Assembly: GCA_016281385.1 (NCBI GenBank)
Contig: JAEEIN010000072.1
Span: 1-40,131 of the forward strand
DNA length: 40,131 bases
Origin: Lachnospiraceae bacterium
GTDB lineage: Bacteria; Bacillota; Clostridia; Lachnospirales; Lachnospiraceae
Direction: 5' to 3'
Positions 9,460 through 33,617 of this stretch are shown here, in pieces. The notes below the pieces were generated by a model. The model saw only the letters and a list, made by a program, of their open reading frames with translations. It did not search any database and was not told where the DNA came from. The position numbers and the translations under genes are program-made. The number at the start of each line of letters is the position of its first letter. Within the stretch, counting starts at the first letter, position 1.

Positions 9460-12400
9460 TTATCTTATAGTGATGTTGTCGTCACCAAAGCTCTGCTTAA
9501 GCACATTTAATATCCCGGGTTCGGCCTTAAAGGTCATATCCGGTCCCAAAGTCTTGTAGGCTCTTTCAGCCTCAAGATATATGGTTATGGTATCCCTTCC
9601 GTCGGAATTCCTGATAAGTTCTTTCAGCTTATCGTTCTGTGAAAGAAAAGCCTCTTTGTTGGGGAATCTGATCCACAGTTCCCGCTTCTCGTCCGAGAAA
9701 GACGTCATGCTCTCCATAATGAGCTTTCCGCCCCGGTCCTCTTCCACCTGAACCCTTCCTGTCATAAATACCTTTGCGTCTTCCACAAGGTCCTTTGAAT
9801 ATTTCTCGTATGCCTTGGGAAAAACAATAACCTCCACCGATCCCAAAAGGTCTTCCAAAGAAAGCATTGCCATAGCCTGATTGGTCTTTGTGAATTTCAC
9901 CGTCTTTGCAGTGATCATTCCGCCGATTGTCGCACGGCTTCCGTCCTTGATCTTGACGGCCTCGGTCTCGGGATCGATCATAAAGTCCGCCGATGTTGCA
10001 CTTATCTTCTTCTGCCACATCGACCTGTATTCTTCCAGAGGATGTCCGGATACATAAATACCCAGGACTTCCTTTTCAAAGGCAAGCTTTGTTTCCTTGG
10101 AATACTCCCCTACATTGGGAAGAGTCTCCATGAAATCCTTCTTTGTTTCTTCGCCGGCAAGATCGAAGAGCGTCATCTGACCTGCCATGGAATGCTTCTT
10201 GTCGGCGGTCACAGTATCCATTATCTGAACATAAACGCTCATGTACTGCTTTCTTGTTCCGCCAAGGGAATCGAAGCAGCCGGCCTTTATGAAGTTCTCC
10301 ATGGCACGCTTGTTAAAGTCGTAATCCGCCATTCTCGTAACAAAATCCGTAAGGCTCTTATACGGGCCCCGCAGATTCCTCTCGGTAACAACCCCCTCGA
10401 TAACGGGCCTGCCCACGCTCTTTATGGCGGTGAGTGCGTAGCCGATCTTCCCGTCGATAACGGAAAAAGAACTCTCGCCTGTATTGATATCGGGTGCGAG
10501 AAGCTCGACACCCATGCTCCGGCAAACCTGAATATATTCGGAAACCTTGGCAGAGTTATCTATGACACTTGTCATCAATGACGCCATAAAGAGCGCCGGA
10601 TAATAGCATTTTAAATATGCGGTCTGGTAGGAGACAACCGCGTAGCACGCCGCATGGGATTTGTTGAAGGCGTACTTGGCGAAATCCATCATCTCGTCGT
10701 AGATCTCACCGGCGATCTCCTCGTTTATGCCTCTCTTGGCACAGCCGGGAACGTTCTCCTCAGCATTACCGTATATGAAGTTGGCACGCTCGACTTCCAT
10801 GACGTGTTGTTTCTTCTTACTCATGGCACGTCTTACAAGGTCGCTTCGGCCAAGGGTGTAGCCGCCGAGGTCACGGACTATCTGCATAACCTGCTCCTGG
10901 TAAACGATACAGCCGTAGGTAGGTTCAAGGATCGGCTGAAGCTCGGGAGTCAGATAGGTTACTTTGTCCCTGTTTTCCTTACCCTTTATGTACTTCGGGA
11001 TGAAGTCCATGGGGCCGGGACGGTACAGGGAGATACCTGCGGTAACATCCTCAAGGCTGGTGGGCTTGAGTTCCTTCATGAAACTCTTCATTCCCGCACT
11101 TTCAAGCTGGAACACGCCTTCCGTGTGGCCCGAGCCCATAAGGGCGAATACCTTGGGATCGTTGTAATCTATATGGTCGATGTCTATTCTTTTTCCAGTG
11201 TTCTTCTCGATAAGATCCAGAGCATCCTTTATAACGGTCAGGGTACGAAGCCCCAGGAAGTCCATCTTCAGAAGTCCCAGTTCCTCAAGAGTGGTCATGA
11301 CGAACTGCGTTGTGATGGAACCGTCCGCTCCCCTTTGAAGAGGAACAAAATTCTCAGCAGCCTCGGGGCAGATGAGAACGCCCGCTGCATGCATTGAAGT
11401 ATGTCTCGGAAGGCCTTCAAGCCTCTTTGACATGTCGATAAGGTACCTGACCTCTTCATCCGTTTCGTAAAGATTTCGAAGCTCCGGATTCATGGAAAGG
11501 GCCTTATCAAGTGTCATGTTAAGTTCGTTGGGGATCATCTTCGCGATCTGATCGCCCCTCTGATAGGGCATATCAAGAACGCGGGCCACATCCCTTATGA
11601 CACCCTTTGCCGCCAGGGTACCGAAGGTAACGATCTGAACAACCTTCTCGGGACCGTATTTGCGGCTGACGTAATCTATGACCTCCTGCCTTCTTTCGTA
11701 GCAGAAGTCAATATCGATATCGGGCATGGATACACGCTCGGGGTTTAAGAACCTTTCAAAAAGGAGGTTAAACCTTATTGGATCGATATTGGTGATATGC
11801 AGGCAATATGAAACGATACTGCCGGCGGCGGAACCTCTTCCGGGGCCGACGGGTATGCCTTCGGAACGGGCGTAGTTGATGAAATCCCAGACTATCAGGA
11901 AATAGTCGACATAGCCCATTCTTTTTATGGTAGCAAGCTCGTAATCAAGCCTCTCCCTTAATTCCTCCACGCGATCGGGATATCTTTCCTTAAGACCGTC
12001 GTCGCAGAGCTTGTTTAAGTATGTCCAGGAATCGTACCCTTCCGGCACCTCGAAATGAGGGAGTTTCGTCACGCCGAACTCGATCTCAACATTGCAGCGA
12101 TCGGCGATCTTCTGTGTATTTTCAAGAGCTTCGGGCGCATATAAAAACAACGCTCTCATCTCTTCTTCACTCTTTACATAGAACTGTCCGCCCTCGTATT
12201 TAAGGCGGTTCTCGTCCTTGACGGTCTTGCCCGTCTGAAGGCAGAGCAAAAGGTCATGGGGCTCGGCATCCTCAGCATAGGTATAATGCGCATCGTTTGT
12301 GGCGATAAGGCCTATGCCCAATTCCTTGCTCATGGAAAGAAGGGTGGCATTTACCATCCTCTGCTCAGGAATGCCGTGATCCTGAAGCTCAAGGAAATAG

Positions 12401-12909
12401 TTGTCGGGTCCGAAGCAGTCACGATACTTTATCGCGCACTTTTTTGCTTCATCCACAAGGCCTTTCTGGATAAGCCTCGGCACTTCGCCTGCAAGACAGG
12501 CCGATGCACAGATGAGGCCTTCATGAAACTCCTGCAATACCTCAAAGTCCACACGGGGTCTGTAATAGAAGCCTTCCGTAAAGCCCCGGGACACGATCTT
12601 GCAGAGATTCTCGTAACCCTTGTTGTTCTCGGCCAGAAGGATGAGGTGGTTGTACCTTTCGTCTCCGCCGTTTACTTCCTTATCGAATCTCGAACCGGGA
12701 GCCACATAGACCTCACAGCCGAGGATTGGCTTGATCCCCGCTTCCCTTGCGGCACGGTAAAAATCAATGACGCCGTACATAACACCGTGGTCGGTGATGG
12801 CCGCTGCGTTCATCCCAAGCTCTTTTACGCGCTTCACATATTCTTTTATCTTATTCGAGCCGTCCAGCAGGGAATATTCCGTGTGGACATGCAGATGAAC
12901 AAAGGACAT
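9460..12909 (-). CDS. dnaE: DNA polymerase III subunit alpha (DnaE)
   Basis: 1149 aa; PHP domain FVHLHVHTEYSLLDG, catalytic PDIDIDFCYERRQEVIDYV, GPGRGSAAGSIVSYCL. Confidence 0.97.
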   Translation of the reverse strand: MSFVHLHVHTEYSLLDGSNKIKEYVKRVKELGMNAAAITDHGVMYGVIDFYRAAREAGIKPILGCEVYVAPGSRFDKEVNGGDERYNHLILLAENNKGYENLCKIVSRGFTEGFYYRPRVDFEVLQEFHEGLICASACLAGEVPRLIQKGLVDEAKKCAIKYRDCFGPDNYFLELQDHGIPEQRMVNATLLSMSKELGIGLIATNDAHYTYAEDAEPHDLLLCLQTGKTVKDENRLKYEGGQFYVKSEEEMRALFLYAPEALENTQKIADRCNVEIEFGVTKLPHFEVPEGYDSWTYLNKLCDDGLKERYPDRVEELRERLDYELATIKRMGYVDYFLIVWDFINYARSEGIPVGPGRGSAAGSIVSYCLHITNIDPIRFNLLFERFLNPERVSMPDIDIDFCYERRQEVIDYVSRKYGPEKVVQIVTFGTLAAKGVIRDVARVLDMPYQRGDQIAKMIPNELNMTLDKALSMNPELRNLYETDEEVRYLIDMSKRLEGLPRHTSMHAAGVLICPEAAENFVPLQRGADGSITTQFVMTTLEELGLLKMDFLGLRTLTVIKDALDLIEKNTGKRIDIDHIDYNDPKVFALMGSGHTEGVFQLESAGMKSFMKELKPTSLEDVTAGISLYRPGPMDFIPKYIKGKENRDKVTYLTPELQPILEPTYGCIVYQEQVMQIVRDLGGYTLGRSDLVRRAMSKKKQHVMEVERANFIYGNAEENVPGCAKRGINEEIAGEIYDEMMDFAKYAFNKSHAACYAVVSYQTAYLKCYYPALFMASLMTSVIDNSAKVSEYIQVCRSMGVELLAPDINTGESSFSVIDGKIGYALTAIKSVGRPVIEGVVTERNLRGPYKSLTDFVTRMADYDFNKRAMENFIKAGCFDSLGGTRKQYMSVYVQIMDTVTADKKHSMAGQMTLFDLAGEETKKDFMETLPNVGEYSKETKLAFEKEVLGIYVSGHPLEEYRSMWQKKISATSADFMIDPETEAVKIKDGSRATIGGMITAKTVKFTKTNQAMAMLSLEDLLGSVEVIVFPKAYEKYSKDLVEDAKVFMTGRVQVEEDRGGKLIMESMTSFSDEKRELWIRFPNKEAFLSQNDKLKELIRNSDGRDTITIYLEAERAYKTLGPDMTFKAEPGILNVLKQSFGDDNITIR

Positions 12910-12954
12910 TTTTATACCCCGGTGTTTCAGAATTCAAACAAAATACCAAATTAC

Positions 12955-12983
12955 AGTATATCAATTTTGTGCAAAAAAAACAA
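12955..12983 (-). promoter_or_regulatory. Predicted sigma-A promoter of dnaE overlapping upstream terminator U-tract
   Basis: Minus strand TTGTTT - 17 bp - TATACT; the -35 is formed by the T-tract of the preceding terminator. Confidence 0.5.
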
Positions 12984-13025
12984 CCGAGCCTGTGATCACG
13001 TAATCCGTCTGCCACAGGTCCGGCT
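12973..13025 (-). terminator. Intrinsic terminator of the large secreted protein gene
   Basis: Minus strand AGCCGGACCTGTG ... CACAGGCTCGGTT (imperfect stem) followed by GTTTTTTTT. Confidence 0.65.
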
Positions 13026-13038
13026 GTCTGTTTGATCA

Positions 13039-16000
13039 TTATTTTGAAAAGAGATTACGTATGGCCTTTAAGATCTCAATATTCCCAAAGGGTCTTGCGT
13101 TGATCTTGAAGGTTACCGTTCTGGTTCCGATATAGCCCTTATCGGGATTTCCCTGCAGGACAACTTTTGCGGTTCCCTTTTTATAATTATCCTCATACGA
13201 ATCGGGAACGACCGTAATTTCCTCTCCCACTGCAACAGGAATGGGCTTAGCCTTTTTGTTTTTTACGATCAAAACTGTGATATCATCGTTATCAAGCTCG
13301 ATATCGGCTCCCGTAAATACCTTGGGATCAATGGTTATCTTTACCGACTTATCATTGATATTTGCCCTGATGATGCGGAAGTAACCCTGTATGGTCCCTT
13401 TATAATCACCGGTTCCGGTAACCGTCACGCAAACCGGTGTACCCTGCTCCAGTATGTGATCCTCCCCGATCTCTGTTCCGGCGGTTACATCAACTCTTTC
13501 TTTCGTTTCTGCGTTGATATAATACCAGTCCTTTGCATAAGTATACTTAAATGGGCAGGTACTGTCGTCGGCCCGGTAATAATCCGTCCCGGCTTTAAGC
13601 TTTTTGCCGTTAGCATCCGTTACCGTAACGGAGGTCTTTTTGAACAATCCGGTTGTATTCTCCTTATAGATCACATCGGAAGCCTTAACAACGGCATTGG
13701 AGAACTTTGTCTCACTGATCGTAAAGTCTCTCATGTCGGATCCGGCGTAATTACCTTTACCGTTTATGATAACATAAGGCCTTTGTGCATCGTCCTCTCC
13801 CGTTATCTTCTTGTTGTTCTTATAGGTGAGGGTGTAATCCTTTCCGTTTACAAGATACTCGCCCGAACGCTTGTCCCTGAGCCTGATATTCGGTGTTGTC
13901 GAGTCTTTTGTCTTTGAAAACTTCGGTATAACTTCCGGCTCCCAGATACAATACTGTCCCCGGGCGTCCTCAACTTCAAAGCCGATCTCCAGACTTGTAT
14001 CGGATTTCAGGATCTTATAAGGCACGATCTTAAATGTCTTTTTTACACTTCCGGTATATTTACCCTTTCCTGTAAAGGTTACCGTAGCTTTGCCGGCCTT
14101 AATATCGTTTTTGTAAGAAACTCTGTAGTCTCTTCCAAGGACAAGTGTCTCCCGGGAGTCACTGCCTGCCGCTTTATAAGTTAAATCAATACCATAAGAA
14201 TCGTTTCCGTCCGGATGACCCGCGACATAGTTATGCCACCCTGTATAAACAAATCCCTTTCTTGCGGAATCATATATAACATCGTTTCTCGTGCTTGCTG
14301 AGAAATCACTCGGAACCTTTACATTCTTAAAGTTTATACCGGTAATGGTCATTGTTTTTGTAACGGTTCCGGTAAAGCCTCCTTTACCCTTATACTTTAT
14401 GGTATATTTGCCAAGTTCCCTGAACCCGTCGGGATGATCCACATACTCAACCTCGTAGTCGATGCCTTCCCAAAGATAATTCTTCTTGGAATTACCCTTC
14501 GTTCCGGTCACATAATAGAACCGCATGGGCTGCTTTATATTGCTTCCGGTATAGGAAACCGAGCTTACATATCCCTCCGTCTTTACCTTTGAAAGCTTTG
14601 TACCCTTAATATTAAAGCTCGTATATGCCATTCCGGTATAATTACCGATGCCTGTAATGGTAACCTTCGCCTTACCGACTTCGCGGTTTGAAGAATAAGA
14701 AAGCCTGTAGTCGGTTCCGTATACCAGCGTATATTTCTTTGCATTATCCTTAAGAACAAAACTGAATTCATTTCCGTTCTTATCAAGAACACGGGTCGAA
14801 GAATCCGTTTCCTCTCCCTCAAGAATAAAGTCCGCTCCGGTGTAGGACTGATCCGGGATCTTTGAGATCGTCACCCCGGAGATAAGTGACTGGCCGGCTT
14901 TATCAACTATTTTAAGCCTTAAGGTCTTTGTTCCGGTGTAATTACCCTTACCTATTACTTTGACTTCATATATTCCGGGGGTCTTAAAGGCATTCTCATC
15001 ATAGAGATTTACGGGATCCGTCGAATTTTTATCCGTATGAGGATAGTAAAGGGTGTAATCCGTGTTGTTTTTAAGGGTTACCGTCTTTCCGTTCAGCGAA
15101 TACTTAATTGTAAACTTGCCCTTCTGAACATTTCCGTTTGCATACAGGCTCTGATGCGCAAATTCAGGATCATCAGCCAATGTGCCCGCAGGATCCTCAT
15201 CAGTGAAGGCGTTCTCTATCGAGGTCGGATTAATGGTAAATGTCTGGGAGACGGTTCCCGTATAGTTGTTCTTTCCGGTTATTATAACCGTAGGTGCGAT
15301 ACTTTTTCCGTTCTTTCCGACAGCGTCCTTTGAAGCCGCCTTTACATTGTTCTTGTAGCTTACGGTATATTCATTCGGAGAAACCTTGTATTTTCCTTCA
15401 TATACCACAGGCACGGGTCTGACCTCTTTGCCCGTATAAGTCTGATCCGGGATCAGCTTCATCCAGTAACCCGACGGAGGATTCTTGACCTCCGCTTTAA
15501 GGTTTATTGATACGGTGTCGCTTTCGGACATCTGCCCCGGCTTTACAAAAAGCTGCGTGCTCATTTCTGTCGGATAAAGCTGGCTTTTCGGCGTTACGGA
15601 AATGCTGAAGCTGTCGCCCGGATATATGCCAAGTCCGAATTCCGGAACCCAAAGATCAAAGTAGGAATAACTGTAAAGTTTAATTCCTGCCTTGAAATCA
15701 AGATACTGATTACCTGTATTTTTGATGGTGAAAGTTTTTGCCGGGAATTTCTCCTGACTGACAGCAGTTTCCCAGATCGCATCTTCATTCGGCGAAACCG
15801 TAAATGCAAAGACCTTCTTCAGAACGGATATCCTGATATTAACATTCTTATCCGCCGTAAAGTCTGTCGGAATCGCAAGTTCATAATTGTGTTCACCTTC
15901 ATCCAATTTCGCTTTTGGGGCGATATTTATTGAAGCAGTCTTACCCGGAAGGACAATATGCCTTGAATAGTCTTTTGCTTCAAATGTGTCACTGTCAAGG

Positions 16001-19000
16001 GAATTCAATCCAAGAAAGATCGTTCCCTTATTCTCAACCGTCACATCCTTCCCTGCAGGTACGGAATCCTTAACGTACTCAAAGTAAAGGGAAGATGGAG
16101 TAACTTCTATTTCCGATCTGCGTTCAAATTCAGTATCACAGATCAGAACAAGTTTTGCTTTTTGTCCCTTATCATCGACCACACTGCTTTTTTCGGCCTT
16201 CCCTCCCGAAGGAAGTACAATGGTCCTCACGCTCGGCTCGCTTAAATACCTTTCATAGTAATAAAAAGTCGGAGCGTTTACGGCATATTCTCCGCCCTCT
16301 GCCCTGAATACGTAGCCGCCATTTATACAAAGGCGCGAAACATCCACAGCATATCCTGTGTTACTTGCGGCATATGCACTCATTGAAGCAGTGCCGTAAA
16401 CATCACCGTTTACCGCACGGATCGCAGCGCTTCCTTTTCCCCTGCTTTCACAGCAGAAAATACCGCCGTTCAGATTAAACATCAGCGGCACATAAACACA
16501 TGGTGTCTCGTCCGCCACATTAATAACATCTATCGTTCCGCCGTTCTGTTCCAGTTCATATGCAAGCAGAGCGTATGCATCCTTTTTAGTGTTCCGGCAG
16601 TTAACCTCAAGATAGCCTCCATTGACCGTCAGTTTTGACATACTTGTGTTGCCCTGTATCAACTTGTTCGATACGTTCATGGATCCGGATACGATCACAT
16701 GACCGTTTTCGATGACTACATTCTGGTAATTTTCCTTGAATATAAGTGAGCCGGCCAGTCTTAATGTACCCTCGTCCGATCCCTTCACGGTAAATGTAAA
16801 TCCGTCGCCGCCCTTGTTCGTTATACCGGGTATGGTCACATCATCCCCGGCCTCCAATGTAACGGTAAGATCTCCTATGATATAGAAACTTCCGGTATCG
16901 GGACAGATCTTTTTAAGTTCCGTGGCCGTATACTCACCCGCTGCTCCGACCACAAACTGCGCTTTAACCCCACACCGGCTTTGGCTGCCCCCGCCATTCT
17001 CCAGGAAGTTGACATTAATGGTGTCTATGTCATCAAGATCCGCATTGTTTGCGCTTAATGAAGCTTTGGGTCTTAACGTAAAGGTTGCTGTCTCCCCGGG
17101 TTTTAAACTGTCCTTTGACAGTTTGCCCAAATTCCAACGCTCCGCCTGTGTCACTTCAACGATCTTTACTCTGACATTGCCGGTATTCTTTATTACTACG
17201 GCCTGTGCCTCGGGAATTTCTTTATAACCCGTCGCGGCACTTCCGAAGTCGTACAGATCCTTTTCTACCGACAATTCCGTTCTCTTACTGTCTTCTACAG
17301 CAAAAGAAAGTGAGAGCATGATATACGCTCCCTGTTTTGTCCTGATATAGAACGGATCAACAGAATAATTGCCGACTCCCAATCCCTTCTTGGGGCAGAT
17401 CGTGATGGTTGTTTCCTGACCCACGGCAAGATCAAGCTTATCGTCTTTAAATGTCACATCGTAAGCATCCGTTTTCGGAATCGTAAATGTAACATCTTTG
17501 ATACCCGTATTCTTTACCGTAAAAACTTTTGCATCCGGCAGTTCAAAATAATCTTTGTATACGCGCCAGAAATCAGCGGACGTGTCACCTATAACTTCGA
17601 TATTGGCATCATTTGCCTTTACCTTATAACTCAGTTCTACCTTTACGTATTTATATGTGTAATTTGACTGTATTGTTACAGTTTCCTTGTAGTCAGCTGC
17701 AGCAAGATCATCCTTCGGCTGTGCGGTAAATGTGGCACTTTCTCCCGGAAGAAGATAGTCTGCCGACAATTCGCTCAGTTCAAAATACTCCGTTTCGGAT
17801 CTTGTGATCCACATCGGAACATCACCGACATTCTTAACTGTTATCGTCTTTTTTTCGGGTCTTGGATCTCCATATGTGATCTTGCCGAAAGAACAAGACG
17901 TCTTGTCGACATTTATTTCGGCCCATTTACTTTTCTGATAAATATTTACTTCTTTTGCGACAGCATTTGTGTCCGTTTCAAATATGGTATCATACTCAAG
18001 TATGGGATATGTACTTCCGGGATAGAGGGAAAAAGTACCGGCAGACTGCTTCTTATAAAATTCGGGGCCCACCATCTTTGCGCCATCTTCCAGAGTGAAA
18101 TTTCCGTTATGCTTCAAAAGAAGGCCATAGGTGTTGCTGACAGCCCTGAAAATGGAATTTCCTTTTATGGAAAAGTTTTCCGCGATGACCGCTGCGCCCG
18201 AGCTTGCTCTCTTACGGGCGTAGAACATAGATTCTCCGCTTATGTCAATATTTCCGGTTATCCTTACTGCCGGAGCTATACCGCCGTGGAAGCAATCATA
18301 CCAGAACACTCCGCCGGTCATGGTCAGATTATCCGCGATATGTGTGAGCATACGGTTTATATGCTGCTCAACATAAACTTTACCGCCCTCTATCAGCAGA
18401 TTTCTGCAATCCAGCGGTGAAAAGAAACTATTGGTGTGTATTATTTCAAGAAAACCTTTCTTTACAGTCAGATCCCCCCCGGTTATAGGACCTGAATCTG
18501 TGATTATGTGGCCTCCGTTAAGCACGATATTGTAGTTGGTTTTGTAATCTTTCTCCTCATCATTTCTAAACCAGATAGGTCCGTTCACACGGATCTTACC
18601 CTTGTCGGAGCCTGTAAATGTCAGCGTTCCCGAAGTATTGTTCGCGCCCTGTATTCCCTTAATGGTTACATCCGTAGTATCTGAGATCTTTATGGTCGTG
18701 TCGCCGGTAATGAAGATTATGGTTCCGCTGCCAAATTCCTCCACAAGCTGTTCGGCAGTATATTCGCCCTCAATTCCATCCGATGACTTTAATGCATCCT
18801 CTTCATATTCTTCATCGGAAGTCTGATCTTCGTTTTCTTTTTCCGATGTTGTGATCTCATCATCCGCATTGGGCAATTCACCGAGGGAGACATCCGGCTG
18901 TGCGGTCTCAGCGGTTTCTGTCAGTTCCTGTTCCACAGGCTCATCAGCATAGACTGCGGTAGCAAAAGAACCGCCCCAATCGCCCATGATCAGTGTTGCT

Positions 19001-19041
19001 GCGAGTAAAACCGACAGCATCCTCTTGACTGCTGTTTTCAT
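13039..19041 (-). CDS. Very large secreted modular protein: two beta-helix-like modules, ASH/choice-of-anchor-D-like domains, about eight C-terminal YTG-type Ig-like repeats
   Basis: Signal peptide MKTAVKRMLSVLLAATLIMGDWGGSFATAVYA; repeated ...VTVENKG/FTIKNTG... modules; repeated G(K)GNYTGT...F.I blocks. Start placed at GGAGG-preceded ATG (19041), not the ORF-track start at 19107. Confidence 0.9.
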   Translation of the reverse strand: MKTAVKRMLSVLLAATLIMGDWGGSFATAVYADEPVEQELTETAETAQPDVSLGELPNADDEITTSEKENEDQTSDEEYEEDALKSSDGIEGEYTAEQLVEEFGSGTIIFITGDTTIKISDTTDVTIKGIQGANNTSGTLTFTGSDKGKIRVNGPIWFRNDEEKDYKTNYNIVLNGGHIITDSGPITGGDLTVKKGFLEIIHTNSFFSPLDCRNLLIEGGKVYVEQHINRMLTHIADNLTMTGGVFWYDCFHGGIAPAVRITGNIDISGESMFYARKRASSGAAVIAENFSIKGNSIFRAVSNTYGLLLKHNGNFTLEDGAKMVGPEFYKKQSAGTFSLYPGSTYPILEYDTIFETDTNAVAKEVNIYQKSKWAEINVDKTSCSFGKITYGDPRPEKKTITVKNVGDVPMWITRSETEYFELSELSADYLLPGESATFTAQPKDDLAAADYKETVTIQSNYTYKYVKVELSYKVKANDANIEVIGDTSADFWRVYKDYFELPDAKVFTVKNTGIKDVTFTIPKTDAYDVTFKDDKLDLAVGQETTITICPKKGLGVGNYSVDPFYIRTKQGAYIMLSLSFAVEDSKRTELSVEKDLYDFGSAATGYKEIPEAQAVVIKNTGNVRVKIVEVTQAERWNLGKLSKDSLKPGETATFTLRPKASLSANNADLDDIDTINVNFLENGGGSQSRCGVKAQFVVGAAGEYTATELKKICPDTGSFYIIGDLTVTLEAGDDVTIPGITNKGGDGFTFTVKGSDEGTLRLAGSLIFKENYQNVVIENGHVIVSGSMNVSNKLIQGNTSMSKLTVNGGYLEVNCRNTKKDAYALLAYELEQNGGTIDVINVADETPCVYVPLMFNLNGGIFCCESRGKGSAAIRAVNGDVYGTASMSAYAASNTGYAVDVSRLCINGGYVFRAEGGEYAVNAPTFYYYERYLSEPSVRTIVLPSGGKAEKSSVVDDKGQKAKLVLICDTEFERRSEIEVTPSSLYFEYVKDSVPAGKDVTVENKGTIFLGLNSLDSDTFEAKDYSRHIVLPGKTASINIAPKAKLDEGEHNYELAIPTDFTADKNVNIRISVLKKVFAFTVSPNEDAIWETAVSQEKFPAKTFTIKNTGNQYLDFKAGIKLYSYSYFDLWVPEFGLGIYPGDSFSISVTPKSQLYPTEMSTQLFVKPGQMSESDTVSINLKAEVKNPPSGYWMKLIPDQTYTGKEVRPVPVVYEGKYKVSPNEYTVSYKNNVKAASKDAVGKNGKSIAPTVIITGKNNYTGTVSQTFTINPTSIENAFTDEDPAGTLADDPEFAHQSLYANGNVQKGKFTIKYSLNGKTVTLKNNTDYTLYYPHTDKNSTDPVNLYDENAFKTPGIYEVKVIGKGNYTGTKTLRLKIVDKAGQSLISGVTISKIPDQSYTGADFILEGEETDSSTRVLDKNGNEFSFVLKDNAKKYTLVYGTDYRLSYSSNREVGKAKVTITGIGNYTGMAYTSFNIKGTKLSKVKTEGYVSSVSYTGSNIKQPMRFYYVTGTKGNSKKNYLWEGIDYEVEYVDHPDGFRELGKYTIKYKGKGGFTGTVTKTMTITGINFKNVKVPSDFSASTRNDVIYDSARKGFVYTGWHNYVAGHPDGNDSYGIDLTYKAAGSDSRETLVLGRDYRVSYKNDIKAGKATVTFTGKGKYTGSVKKTFKIVPYKILKSDTSLEIGFEVEDARGQYCIWEPEVIPKFSKTKDSTTPNIRLRDKRSGEYLVNGKDYTLTYKNNKKITGEDDAQRPYVIINGKGNYAGSDMRDFTISETKFSNAVVKASDVIYKENTTGLFKKTSVTVTDANGKKLKAGTDYYRADDSTCPFKYTYAKDWYYINAETKERVDVTAGTEIGEDHILEQGTPVCVTVTGTGDYKGTIQGYFRIIRANINDKSVKITIDPKVFTGADIELDNDDITVLIVKNKKAKPIPVAVGEEITVVPDSYEDNYKKGTAKVVLQGNPDKGYIGTRTVTFKINARPFGNIEILKAIRNLFSK

Positions 19042-19062
19042 AAACTTTCCTCCAAATAAAAA

Positions 19063-19097
19063 ACTGTTTTCGCGAAACATCATATCACGAAAACAGT
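19063..19097 (-). terminator. Inverted repeat downstream of metK (terminator-like on minus strand; also overlaps next promoter)
   Basis: Perfect 10-bp inverted repeat ACTGTTTTCG / CGAAAACAGT, followed on minus strand by TTTTTTATTT. Confidence 0.6.
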
Positions 19098-19107
19098 CTT
19101 TATTCAA
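19079..19107 (-). promoter_or_regulatory. Predicted sigma-A promoter of the large secreted protein gene
   Basis: Minus strand TTGAAT - 17 bp - TATGAT. Confidence 0.5.
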
Positions 19108-19131: not shown

Positions 19132-20316
19132 TTATTTAAGATACTTCTTAAGTGCATCAGCCTTGTCGGTCTTCTCCCAGGGAAGATCGATGTCGGTGCG
19201 TCCGAAGTGGCCGTAAGCAGCGGTCTGCTTGTAGATGGGCCTTCTTAAGTCGAGCATCTTGATGATTCCTGCGGGACGAAGATCGAAGTTCTCTCTGACG
19301 ATCTTTGTAAGCTCGGCATCGGAAAGCTTGCCGGTGCCAAAGGTATCAACCTGAACAGATGTGGGCTGTGCAACACCGATGGCGTAGGATAACTGGATCT
19401 CGCACTTGTCTGCAAGGCCTGCAGCAACGATGTTCTTTGCAACGTATCTTGCTGCGTATGCTGCGCTTCTGTCAACCTTTGTGCAGTCCTTTCCGGAGAA
19501 AGCTCCGCCGCCGTGACGTGCATATCCGCCATAGGTGTCGACGATGATCTTACGGCCTGTAAGACCTGCATCACCGTGAGGTCCGCCGATTACGAAACGG
19601 CCTGTGGGGTTGATGAAGAACTTTGTATTGTCGTCGATCATCTCCTTGGGAAGGATGGGATCGAATACATACTTCTTGATATCTTTGTGGATCTGCTCCT
19701 GAGTAACGTCCTCATCATGCTGGGTGGAGCATACAACGGCCTCAAGCCTTGCGGGCTTGCCGTTCTCATCATACTCTACGGAAACCTGAGTCTTTCCGTC
19801 GGGACGAAGATACTTTAAGGTTCCGTCCTTTCTTACCTTTGTAAGCTGAAGTGCAAGCTTATGGGCAAGAGAAATGGGATAAGGCATAAGCTCGGGAGTC
19901 TCGTTGGTTGCGTAACCAAACATCATACCCTGGTCGCCGGCGCCTGTATCAAGGTCGTCCTTAATTTCTCCTTCTTTTGCCTCAAGGGCCTTATCAACGC
20001 CCATTGCGATATCTGCAGACTGCTCGTCTATAGCTACCATTACGGCACAGGTGTTGCCGTCAAAGCCGTAATCGGATTTGGTGTAACCGATCTCCTTTAC
20101 GGTCTCTCTTACAATGTTCTGAATGTCAACATAGGCATTCGTGGTGATCTCACCCGTAACAAGAACAAAGCCTGTGCAGGCAGTTGTCTCGCAGGCAACA
20201 CGGCTCATGGGGTCATTTGCCATGCATGCGTCAAGGATCGCATCGGAAATGGCATCGCATACCTTGTCGGGATGTCCTTCTGTTACGGATTCGGAAGTAA
20301 ATAATCTCTTTTCCAT
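19132..20316 (-). CDS. metK: S-adenosylmethionine synthetase
   Basis: [81 protein letters not shown]. Confidence 0.98.
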
Positions 20317-20370
20317 TCTGTTCTGTCCTTTCATAAATGTGCTGGGTTTACGGACTGAAAATCTGAAAAT

Positions 20371-20423: not shown

Positions 20424-20536
20424 CTCTTATTGTTCGATTTAGCCGTCGTCCGGCCGCTCGCTCAGGTTGGCACCTTCCACTGTGGGGTTGCCGTGGCTTC
20501 ACAGATCCTTTGTATCTCCACCACTCTGAATAAGAG
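20424..20536 (-). ncRNA. SAM-I (S-box) riboswitch aptamer
   Basis: Minus strand CTCTTATTCAGAGTGGTGGAGATACAAAGGATCTGTGAAGCCACGGCAACC...AAGGTGCCAACCTGAGCGAGC...AATAAGAG; P1 formed by CTCTTATT/AATAAGAG; upstream of metK. Confidence 0.95.
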
Positions 20537-32933: not shown

Positions 32934-33617
32934 ATGAAGTACAGTATTGAGGGCGAACCCTTACCCGTTGTCATCTGCGAAGTTGAAGCAGGCGAGACTC
33001 TTATCACCGAGAAAGGCGCTATGAGCTGGATGACACCCAACATGAAGATGGATACCACTTCCGGCGGCGGAATCGGTAAGATGCTCGGCAGAGCTTTCTC
33101 AGGTGAAAGCTTATTCCAGAACAAGTACACCGCTGAAGGCGGAAACGGAACCATCGCATTCGCATCAAGCTTCCCCGGATGCATCAGAGCATTCGAGATC
33201 GCTCCCGGACAGGAGATCGTTGCGCAGAAGTCCGCATTCCTTGCATCTTCCGCGGGTGTTGAGCTTTCCGTATTCTTCCAGAAGAAGTTAGGCTCCGGTT
33301 TATTCGGCGGCGAAGGCTTTGTTATGCAGAAGCTTTCAGGTCAGGGAACCGCTTTCCTTGAGTTTGACGGATATATCAAAGAGTATGAATTACAGGCAGG
33401 TCAGAGCATGGTTGTCGACACAGGCTATCTTGCAGCAATGACCGGCAGCTGCACAGTTGACGTTCAGACCGTTCCCGGCCTTAAGAACGCTCTTCTCGGC
33501 GGCGAAGGACTCTTCAACACGGTTGTTTCCGGTCCCGGACGCATCTGGTTACAGTCCATGCCCGTATCCGCTCTTGCAAGCGCACTTATTCCTTTCTTAC
33601 CTACTTCAAGCAAGTAA
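32934..33617 (+). CDS. AIM24 / TIGR00266-family protein
   Basis: MKYSIEGEPLPVVICEVEAGETLITEKGAMSWMTPNMKMDTTSGGGIGKMLGRAFSGESLFQNKYTAEG...FVDTGYLAAM-type pattern; SD AGGAGG. Confidence 0.92.
   Translation: MKYSIEGEPLPVVICEVEAGETLITEKGAMSWMTPNMKMDTTSGGGIGKMLGRAFSGESLFQNKYTAEGGNGTIAFASSFPGCIRAFEIAPGQEIVAQKSAFLASSAGVELSVFFQKKLGSGLFGGEGFVMQKLSGQGTAFLEFDGYIKEYELQAGQSMVVDTGYLAAMTGSCTVDVQTVPGLKNALLGGEGLFNTVVSGPGRIWLQSMPVSALASALIPFLPTSSK

Follow-up and report, generated by a model that had tools for sequence, protein, structure and literature searches.

The window, which is the whole 40,131-nucleotide stretch of the Lachnospiraceae genome analysed here, carries metK and, following it on the minus strand, a gene for a large secreted protein. 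The short region between the two genes enabled us to examine how the end of one transcription unit and the beginning of the next are arranged (Table 1). Read along the minus strand, the metK stop codon (19134-19132) is followed by TTGAAT, a 17-bp spacer, TATGAT, the T-tract, the GGAGG sequence and the ATG start codon (19041-19039). A perfect 10-bp inverted repeat, formed by ACTGTTTTCG (19063-19072) and CGAAAACAGT (19088-19097), and the abutting palindrome TTTCGCGAAA are exact in the sequence, as the original prediction had described them. The mechanical open reading frame call placed the start of the secreted protein at the TTG at 19107, which we rejected and assign to the promoter instead. 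The metK leader contains a SAM riboswitch (20424-20536, minus strand; Rfam RF00162, 68 bits).

Table 1 Features of the metK/secreted-protein junction and the second palindrome site of the window
Feature	Position	Strand	Basis or remark
metK (S-adenosylmethionine synthetase)	19132-20334	-	Proteins 95-87% identical in congeners
-35-like TTGAAT	19102-19107	-	Promoter scan
Terminator hairpin	19063-19097	-	Fold and shuffles; predicted to end the metK transcript
-10-like TATGAT, extended TG (TGaTATGAT)	19079-19084	-	Promoter scan; exactly in the terminator loop
Operator-like palindrome TTTCGCGAAA	19068-19077	.	Centred on the predicted start; genome-wide recurrence
Predicted transcription start	19072-19073	-	Inferred from the -10 position; within the 3' arm
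T-tract TTTTTTATTT	19054-19063	-	Sequence; directly 3' of the stem
Shine-Dalgarno GGAGG	19049-19053	-	Sequence
2000-aa secreted protein	13039-19041	-	Signal peptide; HYDIN/DUF1573-type Ig-like domains
Second in-window TTTCGCGAAA	32869-32878	.	Between -35 TTGACA and -10 TAAAAT of an AIM24-family gene (32934-33617)

In most congeners examined, dnaE comes directly after metK, as identified from the opening of the following reading frame. In the present genome, metK and dnaE (9460-12909) are separated by the 2000-aa gene, and relatives of its product account for 38 matching stretches in the same genome but turned up in no more than two of the 17 congeners. Judged by this gene order and distribution, the gene is a lineage insertion between metK and dnaE. 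The large secreted proteins as a group form a lineage-specific expansion.

The predicted fold of the RNA spanning 19131-19050 has an energy of -23.9 kcal/mol, where shuffled sequences average -12.7 (z -4.39); none of 200 shuffles was as stable. Its 13-bp stem, with one G-U pair, is formed by a 5' arm at 19097-19085 and a 3' arm at 19075-19063, and the nine-base loop (19084-19076) is TATGATGTT, which holds the -10 hexamer exactly. We therefore interpret the 10-bp split repeat as, most plausibly, the stem of the predicted intrinsic terminator of metK, and the original prediction of such a role for the repeat and its T-run agrees with the fold. Like other rho-independent terminators, it consists of a stable stem-loop and a T-tract past the last stop codon, but its stem is fairly A/T-rich and its loop doubles as the -10 of the promoter that follows. 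Among the inverted repeats of the window, the 10-bp repeat does not stand out, being one of three of at least 10 bp (loops of 3-30), and a simple terminator scan missed the metK hairpin. Among relatives, 79 of 106 distinct metK 3' ends have a predicted terminator within 160 nt past the gene, with sequences unrelated to the counterpart here.

The promoter scan recovered the two hexamers and the 17-bp spacing of the original prediction together with an extended TG, although a match of this quality occurs at chance frequency for the region (one found against 1.5 expected, or one per 1.1 kb). The two hexamers, their spacing and the upstream TG resemble sigma-A extended -10 promoters, from which this one differs in being embedded in the terminator of the upstream gene. 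From the position of the -10, we infer a start site 6-7 nt downstream, at about 19073 and inside the 3' arm. The segment 19073-19030 is unstructured when folded alone (z +1.1); a transcript beginning there lacks the 5' arm, so the hairpin would not form and termination would be escaped. TG-extended -10 elements also lie inside or directly before the metK terminator at five other Lachnospiraceae loci (L012, L035, L039, L044 and L101). Across 239 terminators, -10 motifs in the loops showed no clear enrichment above reverse-strand controls, and the papers examined on promoters inside terminators contained no description of the present layout. The gap between the 2000-aa gene and dnaE (12925-13038, minus strand) is another compact junction of this kind, in which a second terminator is immediately followed by a promoter-like TTGTTT-17-TATACT with extended TG and the -35 overlaps the T-tract.

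The genome contains nine copies of the palindrome TTTCGCGAAA, every one of them intergenic by inspection. A crude gene caller scored eight of the nine as intergenic; the exception falls in a spurious ORF at a contig edge, where the minus strand encodes the start of a secreted protein. Markov models of the genome itself expect 0.39-0.50 intergenic and 1.3-5.8 coding copies. The 17 congeners have 0-3 copies each, mostly coding, and of 56 copies in relatives (16 from congeners and 40 from other family genomes) 49 are inside genes and seven between them (Fisher p ~1e-5 against this genome). The 8-bp core TTCGCGAA gives a similar picture, with 15 of its 23 copies intergenic, whereas 1.1 Mb of loci from Lachnospiraceae and other Firmicutes contain 18 copies, two of them intergenic; this bias has a p of 5e-4 relative to relatives and ~3e-9 relative to a genome that is 12% intergenic, and it is unchanged when the index site at 19068 is removed (14 of 22). 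Eight more sites, of which five are intergenic, come with the nine-base form TTTCGCGAA. These counts come from a 193-contig draft with crude gene calls; the motif derived from the finding itself and was not picked from many, and the nine include the index site. The copy number does not settle the matter by itself, since nine or more copies occur in 9 of 397 family genomes, which places nine in the top 2-3%; in one such genome, G062, all five sites checked are coding. Further genomes (G131/G428, G114/G417, G409 and G171) hold 6-14 copies each. The palindrome is over-represented in promoter regions relative both to coding DNA and to relatives, and its association with intergenic promoters is non-random.

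The sites precede about 15 units, roughly a dozen of them besides the metK junction. Five are genes for large signal-peptide proteins, namely the 2000-aa gene and those on C4, C48, C60 and C18, which exceeds expectation with a hypergeometric p of ~7e-6, a rough value based on guessed totals of 25 in 1200. The promoters of seven other large secreted paralogs gave no significant close match to the site, with C164 and C117 borderline only. Further targets are topA (C68), genes for a solute-binding protein (C29) and a FliD-like protein (C120), a gene on C129, and a gene on C82 that is citrate-synthase-like when its N-terminus is judged by eye. On C183 the site precedes the gene of a 162-aa protein, with an ABC exporter behind it, and on C31 that of a 396-aa membrane protein, with a GGDEF protein encoded divergently. 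Two AIM24-family genes are included, one in the window and the other on C146, where the site precedes a PAS-protein gene with the AIM24 gene downstream on the same strand. On C18, a response regulator with REC and LuxR-type HTH domains is divergent to the secreted-protein gene, and a site lies near each of the two promoters. The promoters L296:283 and L199:2245 have in common TTCGCGAAA, followed by one or two A/T pairs and TTGGTACATTA, a likeness that suggests a common promoter type or a duplication.

Relative to the best predicted promoters, site centres appear to cluster at two distances: -43 (C4), -42 (secreted-protein gene of C18), -45 (topA) and -44 (C146) in one cluster, and -17 to -24, in the -35/-10 spacer, for the window AIM24 gene, the response regulator, C82 and C183 in the other; both clusters rest on predicted promoters, and those assigned at C48, C60, C29 and C120 are weak predictions. 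In general, a position near -41 fits an activator in contact with RNA polymerase, and one within the spacer or at +1 fits a repressor. The index site is centred at 0, unlike the sites near -43 before other secreted-protein genes. The topA promoter is kept in several congeners while TTTCGCGAAA is absent from the orthologous promoters of those compared, so the site is an acquisition of this lineage on a promoter that already existed.

Our best explanation, which we consider probable, is that the segment 19049-19107 (minus strand) combines a terminator, a promoter and a putative operator. The metK RNA would fold the 13-bp hairpin, enter the U-tract UUUUUUAUUU and terminate. The hairpin loop would at the same time supply the -10 of a promoter of the sigma-A type, from which the gene of the 2000-aa secreted protein would be transcribed; these transcripts would start in the 3' arm and, without the 5' arm, would not be terminated. 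The palindrome in the 3' arm, centred on the start, would be the operator for a sequence-specific regulator of the lineage, which when bound at 19068 would block open-complex formation and thereby repress. Elsewhere in the genome, activation would be the probable outcome at sites just upstream of the -35 (about -43), and repression at those that lie within the spacer, at about -17 to -24. The three roles of the original prediction fit the evidence, with the operator moved from the split repeat to the palindrome, which recurs where the split repeat is unique.

The original prediction had placed the operator in the split dyad around the -10, GTTTTCG...CGAAAAC, and the perfect 10-bp arms on either side of the hexamer do agree with such an arrangement. 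The dyad nevertheless has a single genome copy even when three mismatches are allowed, and no homologous stretch of its 35 bp was found in 59 relatives; with two mismatches, GTTTTCGCGAAAAC occurs 14 times, equal to the control. Its uniqueness here and absence from relatives argue against a recurring operator and fit a private terminator stem, whose pairing explains the dyad fully, and we regard the split-dyad operator as highly improbable. Conservation of the dyad across related genomes, which that prediction proposed as a check, was not observed. Conservation beyond what terminator pairing accounts for is found within the genome, where TTTCGCGAAA recurs in association with promoters; across species, conservation of an operator at the metK 3' end is not applicable because the downstream gene is lineage-specific. 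A more serious competitor, still unlikely in our judgement, is that the junction is only a compact terminator and promoter, with the palindrome at 19068 arising by chance from the stem sequence and no regulator acting here, whatever role TTTCGCGAAA may have as an operator at other sites. The palindrome does belong to the terminator stem and could be a by-product of its pairing; the stem by itself accounts for both repeats, the 35-bp dyad is unique, and motif-free overlaps occur after metK in the five loci named above and before dnaE in the window. This account, however, has to accept the low chance that one of only nine copies falls on the predicted start of a secreted-protein gene, which belongs to the enriched target class. 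The palindrome could instead be a site of DNA modification, restriction or nucleoid structure, as its restriction-type centre TCGCGA and its presence before topA might suggest. TCGCGA is not avoided in coding DNA, however (observed/expected 0.82, against 0.83 in relatives), and the sites are few, appear to be placed in a promoter-specific way and concentrate at genes for surface and signalling functions, which makes this reading rather improbable.

Returning to the palindrome as operator, TTTCGCGAAA apparently marks a lineage-specific and so far undescribed regulon. A wider interpretation, which we put forward tentatively as a possibility somewhat short of even, is that one Lachnospiraceae species has newly evolved a regulator that recognises TTTCGCGAAA and runs a cell-surface programme, comprising large secreted proteins, AIM24 proteins, topA, the citrate-synthase-like gene and the gene of the regulator itself. 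At the metK junction, its operator would have come to lie in the terminator stem, with the loop occupied by the -10, and a single 50-bp piece would thereby serve as terminator, promoter and operator. Such a regulon, with its candidate regulator, would be testable for the large secreted proteins that are abundant in this uncultured, gut-type Lachnospiraceae species. At this very compact junction, a housekeeping gene and an inserted gene would share one set of bases, as the terminator of the former and the regulated promoter of the latter; the layout bears on the insulation of newly inserted genes from a host chromosome and on their wiring into it.

LacI-family operators are palindromes with a central CG, as here. 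The present sites as a set differ from them in having no association with sugar genes, and no LacI-family gene adjoining a site was found. Literature searches for a bacterial operator with the sequence TTTCGCGAAA or TTCGCGAA returned only primers and incidental matches, apart from one predicted SacR site of Lactobacillus plantarum that contains TTCGCGAAA (PMC7419226). The best and first candidate regulator is the REC and LuxR-HTH response regulator on C18, an assignment that we hold to be possible but less likely than not. Its own predicted promoter has a site in the spacer, and the protein can be aligned along both of its domains with the structures of FixJ and further REC-HTH proteins; its HTH match has an E value of 5e-4, below the Pfam curated cut-off. 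The arrangement is like that of NarL/FixJ-type regulons in that a REC-HTH gene with a site in its own promoter is divergent to a target, and it differs in the sub-threshold HTH and in a link between protein and site that is putative. Two core sites 73 bp apart (L285:731 and L285:804) lie between the divergently oriented genes for a secreted protein and a REC-LuxR-HTH regulator.
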